Shown here: piece after piece, positions 3,600 through 10,096 of the stretch
Numbering within the stretch: the stretch's first letter is position 1
Layout: every line of letters starts with the position of its first letter
Source: Bradyrhizobium sp. Ghvi
GTDB taxonomy: Bacteria > Pseudomonadota > Alphaproteobacteria > Rhizobiales > Xanthobacteraceae
Reading direction: 5' to 3'
Length of the DNA stretch: 64,000 bases
Assembly: GCF_900115265.1 (NCBI RefSeq)
Contig: NZ_FOVU01000002.1
Span: 434,001 to 498,000 of the forward strand
Made by a program: the position numbers and the translations under genes
The notes under the pieces: generated by a model
The model's database searches: none
The model's input: only the letters and a program-made list of their open reading frames with translations
Told to the model about the DNA's origin: nothing

Positions 3600-4022
3600 A
3601 TGAAGATAATCTCAATACGCCAGCCTTGGGCATGCCTAATCATCACCGGCGGGACCGACGTCCAGACCGGCGGCACGCTGCTCAAAGACGTCGAGAACCG
3701 CTCCTGGGCGACCGCCTACCGCGGTCCGCTCCTGGTCCACGCGAGCCAGCGCCCGGATGCGATCCGGCCAGACGAGATCGAGCGACGCTTCGGCGTGCGG
3801 CTGGAGGGCGAGCAGCAGCTCGGCGGCGTCATAGGCATGGTTGACATTGTTGATTGCGTCCGGCCGCACGCGAGCCGCTGGTACGCGCGGGATCACTTCG
3901 CGTTCGTGCTCGCCAATCCGAGACCGCTCCCGTTCGTTCGATGGAAGGGCGCGCTGTCGCTGCGCACCGCGCCGGCCGAGCTGCTCGCGCTCATTGACGA
4001 GCAGACCAAGCGAGCAGCGTGA
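3600..4022 (+). CDS. ASCH domain protein
   Basis: A 140-residue protein with the hallmark ASCH/PUA-like start (ISIRQPWACLIITGG, residues 4-18), then a VENRSW motif (31-36), a GPLLVHASQR segment (42-51), and a central GGVIGMVDIVDC strand pair (75-86). ASCH proteins bind RNA or modified nucleosides; some cleave N4-acetylcytidine or act on tRNA. The N-x-R-W/S-W element and the HAS motif are typical of phage and island ASCH proteins. The start ATG is at 3600, 60 bases after the previous gene. Which substrate it uses cannot be told from sequence. Confidence 0.8.
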   Translation: MKIISIRQPWACLIITGGTDVQTGGTLLKDVENRSWATAYRGPLLVHASQRPDAIRPDEIERRFGVRLEGEQQLGGVIGMVDIVDCVRPHASRWYARDHFAFVLANPRPLPFVRWKGALSLRTAPAELLALIDEQTKRAA

Positions 4023-4074
4023 TCGCCGCTCCGCGTCAGCGGCTCTCAACCGTTAATCTCCGCTGAACACAAAG

Positions 4075-4176
4075 CGTAGTTACTCGACTACGTTTCGTAG
4101 ATTGCTCGCTCGCGAGTGATATCAAAGGCGATTTTCGATTTTCGCTACGATTTGACTACAGATTGTAGGATTGCTC
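4075..4176. promoter_or_regulatory. Cluster of CTAC/GTAG palindromes, likely operator region
   Basis: This AT-rich stretch carries an inverted repeat CGTAGT-6-ACTACG at 4075-4092. It also has two near-copies of a 22-23 base unit: GACTACGTTTCGTAGATTGC at 4086-4105 (plus TC) and GACTACAGATTGTAGGATTG at 4154-4173 (plus CTC). Each unit has an internal CTAC-GTAG palindrome and ends ATTGCTC. The spacing between units is 68 bases. Repeated dyads upstream of a gene with a good ribosome binding site suggest binding of a dimeric regulator. No matching regulator gene is seen in the window. Confidence 0.5.
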
Positions 4177-4266
4177 CGCCCACAACTCTACGCTTGGCAA
4201 CTACAGGCAACGCCGTCACGCTTCTCTCGTGATCAAACAGCGCATCAGCGCGAGAGGAGAAACGAC

Positions 4267-4638
4267 ATGCAGCAGCAGACCTGCCCCGTTCTGACCCTTG
4301 CTCAAAAATACGATCTCGTCGCGAAGCAGTGGCTCGAAAGCGAGAGCGATGCCAATTACCAGAAGCTCGGCCATATGGTCCTCGCGGCCGATCATCTAAC
4401 CCCGCAGAGCATCACCGGCGCGACCTTCCAGATTGCGTGCGCGGTATCTGAGCTGGATGTAATTGCTCGCGGGGGCGATGCTCCGCACATCCGTTTGGCC
4501 GCTGAACGGCGGGTGTTGCGGCTGCTCCGCAATGCGCTCATCTTCCTCGAGGAATGCAGCGCGGATCTGCCGTCCGCTTGGAAGTTTGTCATTCCAGCGG
4601 GCGACGGACAGCTCAAGCGCAAGTACGGCTCGAACTGA
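4267..4638 (+). CDS. Hypothetical island protein (123 aa)
   Basis: ATG at 4267 is preceded by GAGAGGAGAAACGAC, a strong ribosome binding site, so this start is preferred over an in-frame upstream start at 4171 that lies inside the palindrome cluster. The product is helical and soluble (MQQQTCPVLTLAQKYDLVAK at the N-terminus, RRVLRLLRNALIFLEECS near 78-95). No family is recognised. It is the first gene after the likely operator region, so it is the probable target of that control. Confidence 0.55.
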   Translation: MQQQTCPVLTLAQKYDLVAKQWLESESDANYQKLGHMVLAADHLTPQSITGATFQIACAVSELDVIARGGDAPHIRLAAERRVLRLLRNALIFLEECSADLPSAWKFVIPAGDGQLKRKYGSN

Positions 4639-4711
4639 GCGAGAGGCCAAAAGGAGATCAGGCCCGAGGCGGCGGCGCTGAGCCGCCGCCTCCCTGCCGA
4701 GAGAGCAGCCC

Positions 4712-5044
4712 ATGAGAGCGAGCGACCGCCAAGCAAGATTGAAGCGAGCCAAAGAGCTCGGACGGCTGGCGTTCGATGTGCTGAGGTTCGAGGAGCTCGT
4801 CGGCAACATGACCGTCGAAGGCGAGCAGAAGCAGTTTCGCGAATTCGCGGAGCGAGGGTTATCCGGTTCGCTCCTGACGCCATTTAGACCGATGCGGCTC
4901 GATGAGTTCTCGCGCATCCAAATTCGGCACCTCGGTCACAAGGTGCTCAACATCCGTTGGTCAAAGGCCGGCGACTTCCAGCTCTTGACGTATGAGCCCG
5001 GCGAGTGGGAAGAGCTGCTCGACCAGCTCGCGAGCGTGTTTTGA
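4712..5044 (+). CDS. Hypothetical island protein (110 aa)
   Basis: A 110-residue soluble protein. It starts with a basic helix (MRASDRQARLKRAKELGRLA), which is followed by mixed alpha/beta sequence ending in an acidic helix (GEWEELLDQLASVF). It lies 73 bases after the previous gene on the same strand and converges with the DUF3037 gene 12 bases downstream. I do not recognise it. The Arg/Lys-rich N-terminus could contact nucleic acid, but no defined DNA-binding fold is visible. Confidence 0.5.
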   Translation: MRASDRQARLKRAKELGRLAFDVLRFEELVGNMTVEGEQKQFREFAERGLSGSLLTPFRPMRLDEFSRIQIRHLGHKVLNIRWSKAGDFQLLTYEPGEWEELLDQLASVF

Positions 5045-5056
5045 AATGTCCGTGAC

Positions 5057-5941
5057 CTAGATGAAGGTCGGCCCGGTCCGGCGTGATCTCTCTGCTCGCT
5101 TACTCTTTTGCTCGACTGGTGTTGCAAGGGAGGAGAGATGCTGCACAAATTTGCTTCGGTCCTGTGCGCTCGCCCAGTTTACGAGGGTTGCACCCTGATG
5201 GGCGGCCGCCTCTAAGGAGGGCATAGCTAGTCGCTCAAGGTCAGCCGAAGCTTCGTACACCAAACGAGCGCTGGTCTCGTCGCCAAATTTCATGCGAGCA
5301 CGCTCAAGAACGAGCGCAGCAACGCCGATCTCAGAGACGGCCTTGCGGAACGTGCTCTCGTCTCCTGAGGCGTCCACCGTCTCTACAACGTGATACGCGC
5401 CATTTTTAAGGACCAGATCCGCGGTCAATCCCTCGGCGACTTCATATCGAGGGACGATCCGGTGCGAAGAAAGATCCTCGTCTCTCTTCGCCAGAACTCT
5501 CTCGTCGCGGAAGATGCGCTTCATTTGAGTGAGCAGCTTCGAGCGCTTTTCCTTCGACCGCAACGGCGCCGGCTCCGCGTCGACCAGGGTCTTCAATATT
5601 GAAGCGACCCGAGCTTCATAGGTCGAAGCGCCTTCAGCCTCGAACACGCCCAACCTCGATAAGGTCAGCGGTCCAAGCTTCGACAAAAATTTGAGCCGCT
5701 CGCTTAATTCCGCTCCGGTGTCTCTGAGCTTCCCGTCCAGGGTGGACATACCATCCAACGCGCGGCGCACGTCATCCGGCTCCACCGCCCCCGAGATGGC
5801 CCGCACCTTCTCAAGTCGCTTGCCCACCCGAACGTCAAGACGATCGTCATTGAAAACGACCAGACCTACGTTCAGCCGCTCACCGCGATCCTCTTCGGTC
5901 GCTAGTTGAACTACCGAGAATTTATAGGAGGGAGCCATCAC
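5057..5941 (-). CDS. DUF3037 family protein, partner of HipA-like kinase
   Basis: A 294-residue soluble protein. The N-terminal part matches DUF3037: a YKFSVVQ strand (6-12) and the family signature ERLNVGLVVF (21-30), with a basic segment after it. Residues from about 130 to 294 form a second helical region whose family I cannot name, so the protein is longer than a minimal DUF3037 domain of roughly 120 residues. The start overlaps the end of the HipA-like gene by 20 bases on the same strand, a sign of co-expression. DUF3037 has no established biochemical role that I know of. From my knowledge of the families it often pairs with a HipA-like kinase. It may be a substrate, a regulator or a second effector. 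Confidence 0.75.
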   Translation of the reverse strand: MMAPSYKFSVVQLATEEDRGERLNVGLVVFNDDRLDVRVGKRLEKVRAISGAVEPDDVRRALDGMSTLDGKLRDTGAELSERLKFLSKLGPLTLSRLGVFEAEGASTYEARVASILKTLVDAEPAPLRSKEKRSKLLTQMKRIFRDERVLAKRDEDLSSHRIVPRYEVAEGLTADLVLKNGAYHVVETVDASGDESTFRKAVSEIGVAALVLERARMKFGDETSARLVYEASADLERLAMPSLEAAAHQGATLVNWASAQDRSKFVQHLSSLATPVEQKSKRAERSRRTGPTFI

Positions 5942-6680
5942 TCAATCCCTTCCGAACACCATCTATCCGCGAACGTCGCACACCGGTCGTCCAAACGTCC
6001 ATAAATTCCGCTCTAAGCGTCGCCGACAGCCAGTCTGCCGGCATCTGGTTGATTATCCCTTCCACCGACACAGATCCGAGCGCTGCCAGAGCATCGAGCA
6101 CGGAATTCGCAGCTACAAAGTCGAAACCATGAAGTTGTCTGAGCAGCCCACCACACAATCGCGTGTTGCAAGCCGGTGGAGGGTAGCCGTTCCAGGGCCA
6201 GTGCCAGAAGAGCGCGCGGCTGAAATCGAAGGTGTAGAGCCGCCGAACGCCGTTGTCGTTGACGGAAAGGTAGTTGTCGAGGTGTCGGTCGTCGTTGAAC
6301 AGCACCAAGTCAAGGGCATAGATCTTCGAAAGCAGTGAGCCGAGCCCCGGCAGGGTCTGTCCGATATTTCCTATGCTGGGCGAGGTCAGAAACGCCTGCG
6401 TTTCGATCCGGCTGGCGACACCAGGAACGCGCCGCGATCCGAACACCACTTCTCCGGAGAGCATTTCCATTGTCACCGCGCCCGGCGAAGTGACACCGAC
6501 AGCCTCCGCGATGTGCGTCGAAATCCACTCGCTCGCGCGCACCGGCCGGCCGTGCGCATCGCCCTTCACATAGTACCGAAACCCGTCATCGGCTTCGACG
6601 CTACCGAGACTGTCCGCGCTCTGGTCGGCGGGTGGGTACTGGATGACTGCTCGGCGGTGGAAGAATTGGAGCTGGTTCAT
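5922..6680 (-). CDS. Short HipA-like kinase (HipA_2 type)
   Basis: A 252-residue protein, much shorter than classical HipA toxin (about 440). Kinase elements are visible: an ATP-site lysine in RYYVKG (K39), the catalytic loop NDDRHLDN (129-136), which matches the HipA pattern N-x-D-x-H-x-x-N with D131 as likely base, and a magnesium-binding FDFS (D152). HipA proteins phosphorylate serine on targets such as glutamyl-tRNA synthetase and cause growth arrest. The target here is unknown. No HipB-like helix-turn-helix antitoxin is adjacent; the partner is a DUF3037 gene overlapping by 20 bases. It starts 90 bases from the 3' end of tRNA-Pro, the usual place for island cargo. Confidence 0.75.
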   Translation of the reverse strand: MNQLQFFHRRAVIQYPPADQSADSLGSVEADDGFRYYVKGDAHGRPVRASEWISTHIAEAVGVTSPGAVTMEMLSGEVVFGSRRVPGVASRIETQAFLTSPSIGNIGQTLPGLGSLLSKIYALDLVLFNDDRHLDNYLSVNDNGVRRLYTFDFSRALFWHWPWNGYPPPACNTRLCGGLLRQLHGFDFVAANSVLDALAALGSVSVEGIINQMPADWLSATLRAEFMDVWTTGVRRSRIDGVRKGLSDGSLL

Positions 6681-6769
6681 GCGGTGCCGACATGGTGCCT
6701 ACATGACCCGAGACTGTCTGCGCGCCACCCCAGCCTCCAAGTCCATCCCATTGATTTTGTTCTAAAAAA

Positions 6770-6847
6770 TGGTCGGAGCGAGAGGATTTGAACCTCCGAC
6801 CCCTAGTCTCCCAGACTAGTGCGCTAACCGGGCTGCGCCACGCTCCG
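6770..6847 (-). tRNA. tRNA-Pro (anticodon GGG)
   Basis: On the minus strand the acceptor stem CGGAGCG (5') pairs with CGCTCCG, followed by discriminator A and an encoded CCA. The anticodon stem-loop is CTAGT-CTGGGAG-ACTAG, with anticodon GGG. The T arm contains GGTTCAAATCC. All arms are intact. Its 3' end forms the boundary with the island. Confidence 0.95.
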
Positions 6848-9038: not shown

Positions 9039-10096
9039 GAAACATCCTCCGGCGCGGTCTGCACGGAACTAAGTGCACCACCCTCGCGGTTGAGCATCTG
9101 ATTGATCTTGTTCAGGAGATCGTAGTGAGCCATCTCATAGCCAACATCGATCGCATAGGCAAAGCCTTCGGCGTTGATCCCGCCATGGCTCTTGACCACC
9201 AGTCCGTTGAGCCCCAGCAACACGCCGCCATTGGATTTGTTGGGGTCCATCTTGTCGCGCAGGGCCTGGAAGGCCTTGCGGGCAAAAACATAACCGATTT
9301 TGGAGAACCAGCTCCGCTGAATCTCGTTGCGGAGTAAGTCCGCCATCTGGCGCGCGGTTCCCTCGGCAGCCTTGAGCGCGATGTTGCCGCTGTACCCTTC
9401 GGTCACGATCACATCGGCCATCCCCTTGCCGATGCCGTCGCCTTCGACGAAGCCGATATATTCGAGTTCCGGCAGGTTCATCGCGCGCAGCATTTCGCCG
9501 GCCTCGCGGATCTCCTCATGTCCCTTGATTTCCTCGGTCCCGATATTGAGCAGGCCGACCGTGGGGCGCTTCTTGTCGAACACCACGCTCACCATGGCTG
9601 CGCCCATGATCGCAAGCGCCACCAGGTGGCGTGCATCGCCACCGATCGTGGCGCCGAGATCGAGCACGACAGACTCGCCGCGCCGGGTGGGCCAGATCGC
9701 GCTGATGGCTGGGCGGTCAATGCCCGGCAGCGTGCGCAGATGGAACCGGGCCATCGCCATCAGCGCGCCGGTATTGCCGGCGGAGACTGCGACATCGGCC
9801 TCGCCCTTCTTCACCGCATCGATGGCAAGCCACATCGAGGAAGTCTTGCGGCCACGCCGGAGCGCCTGGCTCGGCTTGTCCGAGCCGCTGACGGCGACCT
9901 CGGTATGAACGATCTTCGAAGCGGCTTTGAGCTCGGGGTGCCGGTCGAGCTCGGGCTCGATCTTGGCGCGGTCCCCGACCAGCAGGAATTCGGTGTCGCG
10001 ATGCTTTCGAAGCGAGATGGCCGCGCCTGGAATGACCACGGCAGCGCCGTCATCGCCCCCCATGGCGTCCAGCGCGATGCGAACCTTGCTTGGCAT
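9035..10096 (-). CDS. plsX: Phosphate acyltransferase PlsX
   Basis: A 353-residue protein that makes acyl-phosphate from acyl-ACP, the first step of phosphatidic acid synthesis with PlsY. It starts [18 protein letters not shown], the typical PlsX opening, and contains [19 protein letters not shown] and the C-terminal [17 protein letters not shown] family signature. The ATG at 10096 is preferred because it begins directly at this conserved opening. It overlaps fabH by four bases. Confidence 0.95.

Follow-up and report, generated by a model that had tools for sequence, protein, structure and literature searches.

A repeated, conserved palindrome as a putative operator in a family of phage-related Bradyrhizobium islands

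The DNA analyzed here is a window of 64,000 nucleotides of Bradyrhizobium sp. Ghvi (contig C23:434001-498000), which contains the right end of an island of ~14.9 kb bounded by a 50-bp direct repeat within tRNA-Pro. The island starts with an integrase gene, from C23:426031, beside the direct repeat at the tRNA end, and its genes include those for an excisionase-like HTH protein, a primase/helicase-like protein and a head-maturation-protease-like protein. The element is a phage-like island integrated at tRNA-Pro. Its DNA gave no match in phage records for positions 3600-5044 and none in plasmid records for positions 4023-4700. At the right end of the island, a HipA_2-like kinase gene (5057-6680, minus strand) lies beside a DUF3037 gene; the two weakly match the PADLOC candidate pair PDC-M66A/B and are possibly defence cargo. 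A further island gene (106-2178) encodes a 690-aa protein with no PHROG match and only a sub-threshold Pfam row, to which a protein of the island at G445:C92 (genome:contig) is 42% identical and proteins of other islands are weakly similar.

Three small genes surround the region of interest: an ASCH-like (PUA-like) gene, gene X and gene Y (Table 1). The name of the first rests on a phmmer match of its protein to the ASCH domain of human ASC-1 (E 3e-5). The same protein corresponds to phrog_3193, a PHROG of unknown function, and it had no match in Pfam or NCBIfam and nothing in PADLOC. The proteins of X and Y did not match PHROG, Pfam, PADLOC or NCBIfam at the limits used, and that of Y had no match in phage records. 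The AlphaFold2 model of X (pLDDT 74.5) is made of helices only, and no row reached Z 8 in a structure search with it.

Table 1. Features of the locus, in positions of the window
Feature	Position	Strand	Remark
ASCH-like (PUA-like) gene	3600..4022	+	adjoins array
Decayed third palindrome, ACACAAAGCGTAG	4067..4079	.	2 mismatches to CTACRNNNYGTAG
Palindrome site 1, CTACGTTTCGTAG	4088..4100	.	identical copy at G377:C46
Palindrome site 2, CTACAGATTGTAG	4156..4168	.	identical copy at G377:C46
Promoter-like block TTGGCA-N17-CACGCT	4194..4222	+	alignment A3 of 7 loci, positions at 9 loci
Predicted mRNA leader hairpin over purine-rich stretch GAGAGGAG, before X	4221..4259	+	from folding
Gene X, 123-aa helical protein	4267..4638	+	first gene of probable X-Y operon
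Gene Y, 110-aa protein	4712..5044	+	second gene of probable X-Y operon
att direct repeat in tRNA-Pro(GGG)	6766..6815	.	right island end; identical to C23:425834-425883

An array of palindromes lies between the ASCH-like gene and X. Sites 1 and 2 are perfect 5-3-5 inverted repeats, 68 bp apart. The first-pass annotation had described them as near-identical CTAC/GTAG units with a common TTGCTC end, followed by mention of a third dyad, all in an AT-rich strip. The strip is indeed poor in G+C (44%; the genes on either side have 67% and 60%, the window as a whole 64%). The near identity holds for the cores of the two units, but the two units are unlike in their inner bases, and the first has a tail shorter by one base; a pattern built on the second unit, tail included, misses the first even at three mismatches allowed. 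The TTGCTC end is common to both units in the window, but relatives carry the palindrome without TTGCTC after it, which indicates that this tail is no element in its own right. Likewise, the third dyad (CGTAGT-TACTCG-ACTACG, 4075-4092) exists, but comparison with relatives shows that it is not a separate element: a third copy of the palindrome has decayed, and its right half, still sound, faces the left half of site 1. At the position equivalent to this decayed copy, the locus G377:C1 holds the exact site CTACGAAGCGTAG.

Within the window, CTAC-N5-GTAG is found at sites 1 and 2 only, whereas shuffled sequences contained 0.16 matches on average and reached two in 3 of 100 cases. The palindromes were absent from the list of a repeat finder run at default lengths. 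The fuller word CTACR-N3-YGTAG occurs at four distinct places of the 7.9-Mb genome, sites 1 and 2 among these, and it can be called rare because the same word read backwards, our control, matches 195 times. When one mismatch is allowed, the window contains nine matches for 1.85 expected, seven of which are scattered single-mismatch sites. One of the other exact genomic sites (C40:134305) sits in apparent coding DNA. The other, CTACAAAACGTAG, is embedded in GCTAC...GTAGC at G000:C31:539446-539458 (L006:1501-1513), an off-island, intergenic-looking place that precedes other reading frames.

We further analyzed the distribution of the array across the genus. Homologues of gene X were identified in 6 of 265 genomes, the source genome included, at a total of eight loci, and two or three exact palindromes lie just upstream of X at seven of these. 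The exception (G382) is a copy of X with two internal stops and zero sites, whereas G377:C1, where the match to X is split over two frames, retains three sites. Homologues of gene Y, some of them partial, are present in 12 of the 265 genomes, again including the source genome, and this search brought in G248, where a degenerate copy accompanies two exact ones. Y-like genes without the array also exist, the closest being that of G319 (74% identity). Ten Y rows outside the known loci were scanned for sites, L044 being left out: L034 has two exact sites, L043 has one and the remaining eight, G319 among them, have zero; a 20-kb stretch of G319 (L047) contains no exact site either. Finally, the profile of a winged-helix protein discussed below added G355, where two copies and the promoter-like block precede a different small gene, to which gene X shows no similarity, and where the ASCH-like gene is divergent.

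The set was completed by a search with the ASCH-like protein, which matches 14 of 257 genomes of the genus. Two or three exact palindromes are present at all nine ASCH-like loci of at least 59% identity (seven Bradyrhizobium genomes), in contrast to none of the nine more distant loci, for which 1.5 kb was scanned on each side (the rows L257 and L259, which adjoin fragments already covered as L248 and L256, were left out of the count). Spacing and flanks vary between loci while the array is retained. Outside the sites, 82 of 107 aligned columns are identical between the source locus and G377:C46, and 37 of 102 between the source locus and G445:C92, the 100% identity of the cores in this comparison being so by construction. 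From 15 sites of seven loci we derived the consensus (A)CTACRnWnYGTAG(T), in which the centre base is A or T in every site.

The perfect 17-mer TACTACRNWNYGTAGTA was detected in 2 of 257 genus genomes, at one place each, both of them array loci. Pairs of sites 5-35 bp apart were detected in four of these genomes, one place each and always at an array locus; the spacing at the source locus, G445, G355 and G377:C46 is too wide for this search, which misses them. The backwards patterns, counted from listings, matched more often than the true ones (28 of 257 genomes for the 17-mer and 13 of 257 for the paired sites) because GATG/CATC words are commoner than CTAC/GTAG words. We therefore place weight on where the few true matches lie and not on their number. 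The first-pass annotation would have regarded its operator as refuted by a lack of conservation in related islands together with the lack of a nearby transcription start; conservation is found at all nine close relatives. Since the palindromes recur in two or three copies at the same place on related islands of other strains, it is very probable that a protein binds them and would thereby switch the small gene behind them on or off.

Downstream of the palindromes lies the promoter-like block, which several relatives carry as TTGGC(A/T)-N16-TACGCT. Eight loci fit TTGGC(A/T)-N16/17-(T/C)AC(G/T)-like, and the block is altered in G248. Measured from start to start, site 2, the closest exact copy in the window, precedes the block by 38 bp. 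Across nine loci this distance is 25-48 bp for the nearest exact site and 128 bp for the farthest one listed, the start of the block being the presumed -35. A search of viral contigs with a pattern that would have missed the window's own block gave one match (L235), which is devoid of palindromes. Between the block and the ATG, a leader hairpin is predicted at all seven X loci (z -1.2 to -3.9), that of G445:C113 having a different sequence and a similar layout. The purine-rich stretch that the hairpin covers is likely the ribosome site of X, although this reading is weaker at G445:C92 because the stretch is further from the start codon there than elsewhere. An upstream start for X (TTG at 4171) was set aside, as a single-base indel relative to G377:C46 breaks the frame.

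Taken together, the palindromes are, in our view, likely to constitute a multi-copy operator that serves the probable X-Y operon in this integrated, phage-related island of ~14.9 kb. The array consists of repeated, conserved dyads upstream of a gene, as expected of a phage-type operator, and the comparison with relatives supports the initial suggestion of an operator for a DNA-binding regulator. Several observations speak against this interpretation: the backwards controls match more often than the true patterns; one exact site lies off-island before another gene and one in coding-like DNA; and a strict scan for sigma-70 consensus promoters found no site, the presumed -10 in G445 reading TACTTA or TACTTC.

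Under the operator interpretation, a dimeric DNA-binding protein would read the half-site (A)CTACR, inverted around an A/T centre, with one dimer per palindrome. X and Y would form one operon with the block as its promoter, and since the copies stand upstream of this block, two or three bound dimers would set the amount of X-Y transcript. Binding ahead of the presumed -35 would suit an activator, which would aid RNA polymerase from upstream, or a repressor that would block it cooperatively or through a loop; the control of X-Y would be positive in the first case and negative in the second. The leader hairpin may act as a second control that holds translation of X low until it is opened. Should such two-level control be confirmed, it would suggest that expression of the product is costly, and the motif would be a marker of regulated cargo in this group of islands. 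Two palindromes spotted by eye have in this way become a defined regulatory signature of a Bradyrhizobium island family, for which a few candidate binders can be named and to which two uncharacterised cargo genes belong.

The most likely binder of the array, although only tentatively so, is the island's own winged-helix protein. Its gene (C23:431104-431424) ends 2.6 kb before the start of the window. The first-pass annotation had supposed a phage-type regulator not visible in the window: the island is phage-like, and a candidate regulator does lie just outside the window. All six of the carrier genomes examined gave a match to the gene, and the non-carriers G319 and G382 gave none, though G319 has a weak match (E 4e-4) to a more sensitive winged-helix profile; when G355 is included, all seven carrier genomes possess it. 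By island, it is present in eight of the nine with palindromes. G445:C113 does not have one, though the other island of G445 does. The gene families compared across the islands were defined by clustering ORFs of at least 50 aa that pass a GC3 filter; the winged-helix gene of G214, hidden by this filter, was detected by other searches.

The predicted structure of the candidate is a winged helix. When it was searched with Foldseek, the best E was 7e-3 and many winged-helix families were tied, MecI and BlaI among the rows, so that these rows are uninformative on the family of the modelled protein; against the sequences of solved structures, its profile gave only rows for ribosomal eS25 and S4. 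The motif cannot be predicted from the family: of the 39 of 257 genomes that match the profile, the majority lack the array as far as could be seen, and the 11 stretches with distant members (L121-L131, ten genomes) contain no exact site. Differences in the recognition helix were rejected as a discriminator, since its core does not change between islands that carry the array and islands that do not. Moreover, identity of the protein is as low as 41-44% at G377:C46 and G248, although the sites of G377:C46 are identical to those of the window, and no palindrome lies ahead of the winged-helix gene itself. One of the stretches with a distant relative (L131, from G415) presents two TTGATAC-N-GTATCAA palindromes at 9660-9742; they are 68 bp apart, the same spacing as that of sites 1 and 2, and their motif is different.

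Three other binders share the operator interpretation and differ from the winged-helix candidate on the protein alone, and the chances that we give them are not exclusive. The first, which we regard as unlikely, is the ASCH-like protein, either as a site-specific binder or as part of the regulator. In the ORF clustering no other gene family is present at every one of the nine palindrome loci, and its clade of at least 59% identity tracks the palindromes (9/9 versus 0/9 for more distant loci). It is related in sequence to the ASCH domain of human ASC-1. However, its adjacency to the array may be plain linkage, and ASCH proteins have been described, in the accessible text of the two sources, as an amidohydrolase (PMC6972931) and as a single-stranded-RNA ribonuclease (PMC5615036), and among the ten papers listed of 42 no title concerned a site-specific binder of duplex DNA. 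A more elaborate version, in which the ASCH-like protein, or a pair formed by this protein and the winged-helix protein, would sense nucleic acid of invading phage and release X-Y via the array and the hairpin, seems to us quite improbable.

A second and less probable binder is a host repressor of the BlaI family, whose operators the island would have co-opted, such that cell-wall stress would release X-Y. The format of the sites agrees with this idea: 22 of 23 assessable BlaI genes of the genus have a CTACR-N3-YGTAG-like site upstream with zero to two mismatches (2 exact, 18 with one mismatch and 2 with two; e.g., CTACGATGCGTAG in L055). This count covers genes of at least 95 bits, with L064 dropped since its upstream region is not placeable and PF03965 matches of 22-25 bits excluded, and the 23 are related genes rather than independent cases. 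The source genome itself possesses such a BlaI gene, followed by an M56-like gene as judged by eye. The sites upstream of Bradyrhizobium BlaI genes are probably autoregulatory operators, and in L055 and L057, for example, the CTACR/CGACR-N3-YGTAG site lies over the apparent -10. Yet most of these sites have CGACR in the left arm and are flanked by G and C. The format also does not single out BlaI, because viral contigs present it beside Arc-like or XRE-type-looking regulators; for the same reason we rejected the format as a marker of a regulator family. Finally, G445 and G377, two genomes that are listed as 100% complete and have two palindrome islands each, have no PF03965 match at E 0.001. 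Host BlaI as the sole regulator fits by format but is contradicted by these two carriers.

About as improbable as BlaI is the possibility that X or Y regulates itself through its own promoter region. The sites stand directly upstream of X, which is wholly helical in its model, the interrupted copy of X in G382 has no sites, and G319, where Y lacks the array, is also without a recognised X. This is opposed by G355, where the array and the block precede an unrelated gene, by G248, which keeps its sites though Y is cut short and X was not found, and by G377:C1, which keeps them in spite of its split X. The mixed evidence on the winged-helix, ASCH-like, BlaI and Arc/XRE proteins makes the winged-helix protein a leading candidate only. 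Lastly, we rejected the idea that the palindromes function in RNA, as hairpins or as a terminator separating the ASCH-like gene from X. This is very improbable even though the minus strand has a terminator-like match over 4075-4092: the RNA folds of the two window sites are weak (z about -1), spacings vary between loci, the G355 copies lie beside a divergent ASCH-like gene, and the fifth pair is broken in 5 of the 15 sites, where A stands opposite C, so that two half-sites read in duplex DNA are indicated instead of an RNA stem.

Operators of BlaI, MecI and CopY are composed of inverted TACR/YGTA half-sites, as is the array. The accessible text of PMC7253601 gives TACANNTGTA for CopY and TACA/TGTA for BlaI and MecI. 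The CopY site has a two-base centre, in contrast to the three-base centre of the array sites, whereas Bradyrhizobium BlaI genes present the same 5-3-5 format upstream. The latter site overlaps an apparent -10, while the array lies upstream of its presumed promoter, and BlaI systems contain a BlaI, for which the array carriers G445 and G377 have no match. The accessible literature on BlaI operators, ASCH proteins and Bradyrhizobium phage satellites yielded no account of the array, and a term search of the accessible text of PMC8457756 found nothing.

Phage DNA offers another parallel. Searches of viral contigs with the format returned 71 and 43 stretches, and among the 14 loci at which flanking genes were viewed, L175, L203 and L136 were seen by eye to carry two or three copies of CTACR-N3-YGTAG, spaced by 22-36 bp, beside Arc-like or XRE-like genes. 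There the copies adjoin a regulator-like gene, whereas the array adjoins the ASCH-like gene, X and Y and no recognised regulator; among the ORF families present in at least six of the nine islands (ORFs of at least 50 aa, GC3-filtered), no Arc-like or XRE-like protein was recognised. The island itself resembles tRNA-inserted satellites and integrative elements, with its integrase by the 50-bp tRNA-Pro att repeat and its excisionase-like HTH, primase/helicase-like and head-protease-like genes. Read as an operator, the array is another multi-copy operator of a phage-related island, a kind that is already known.
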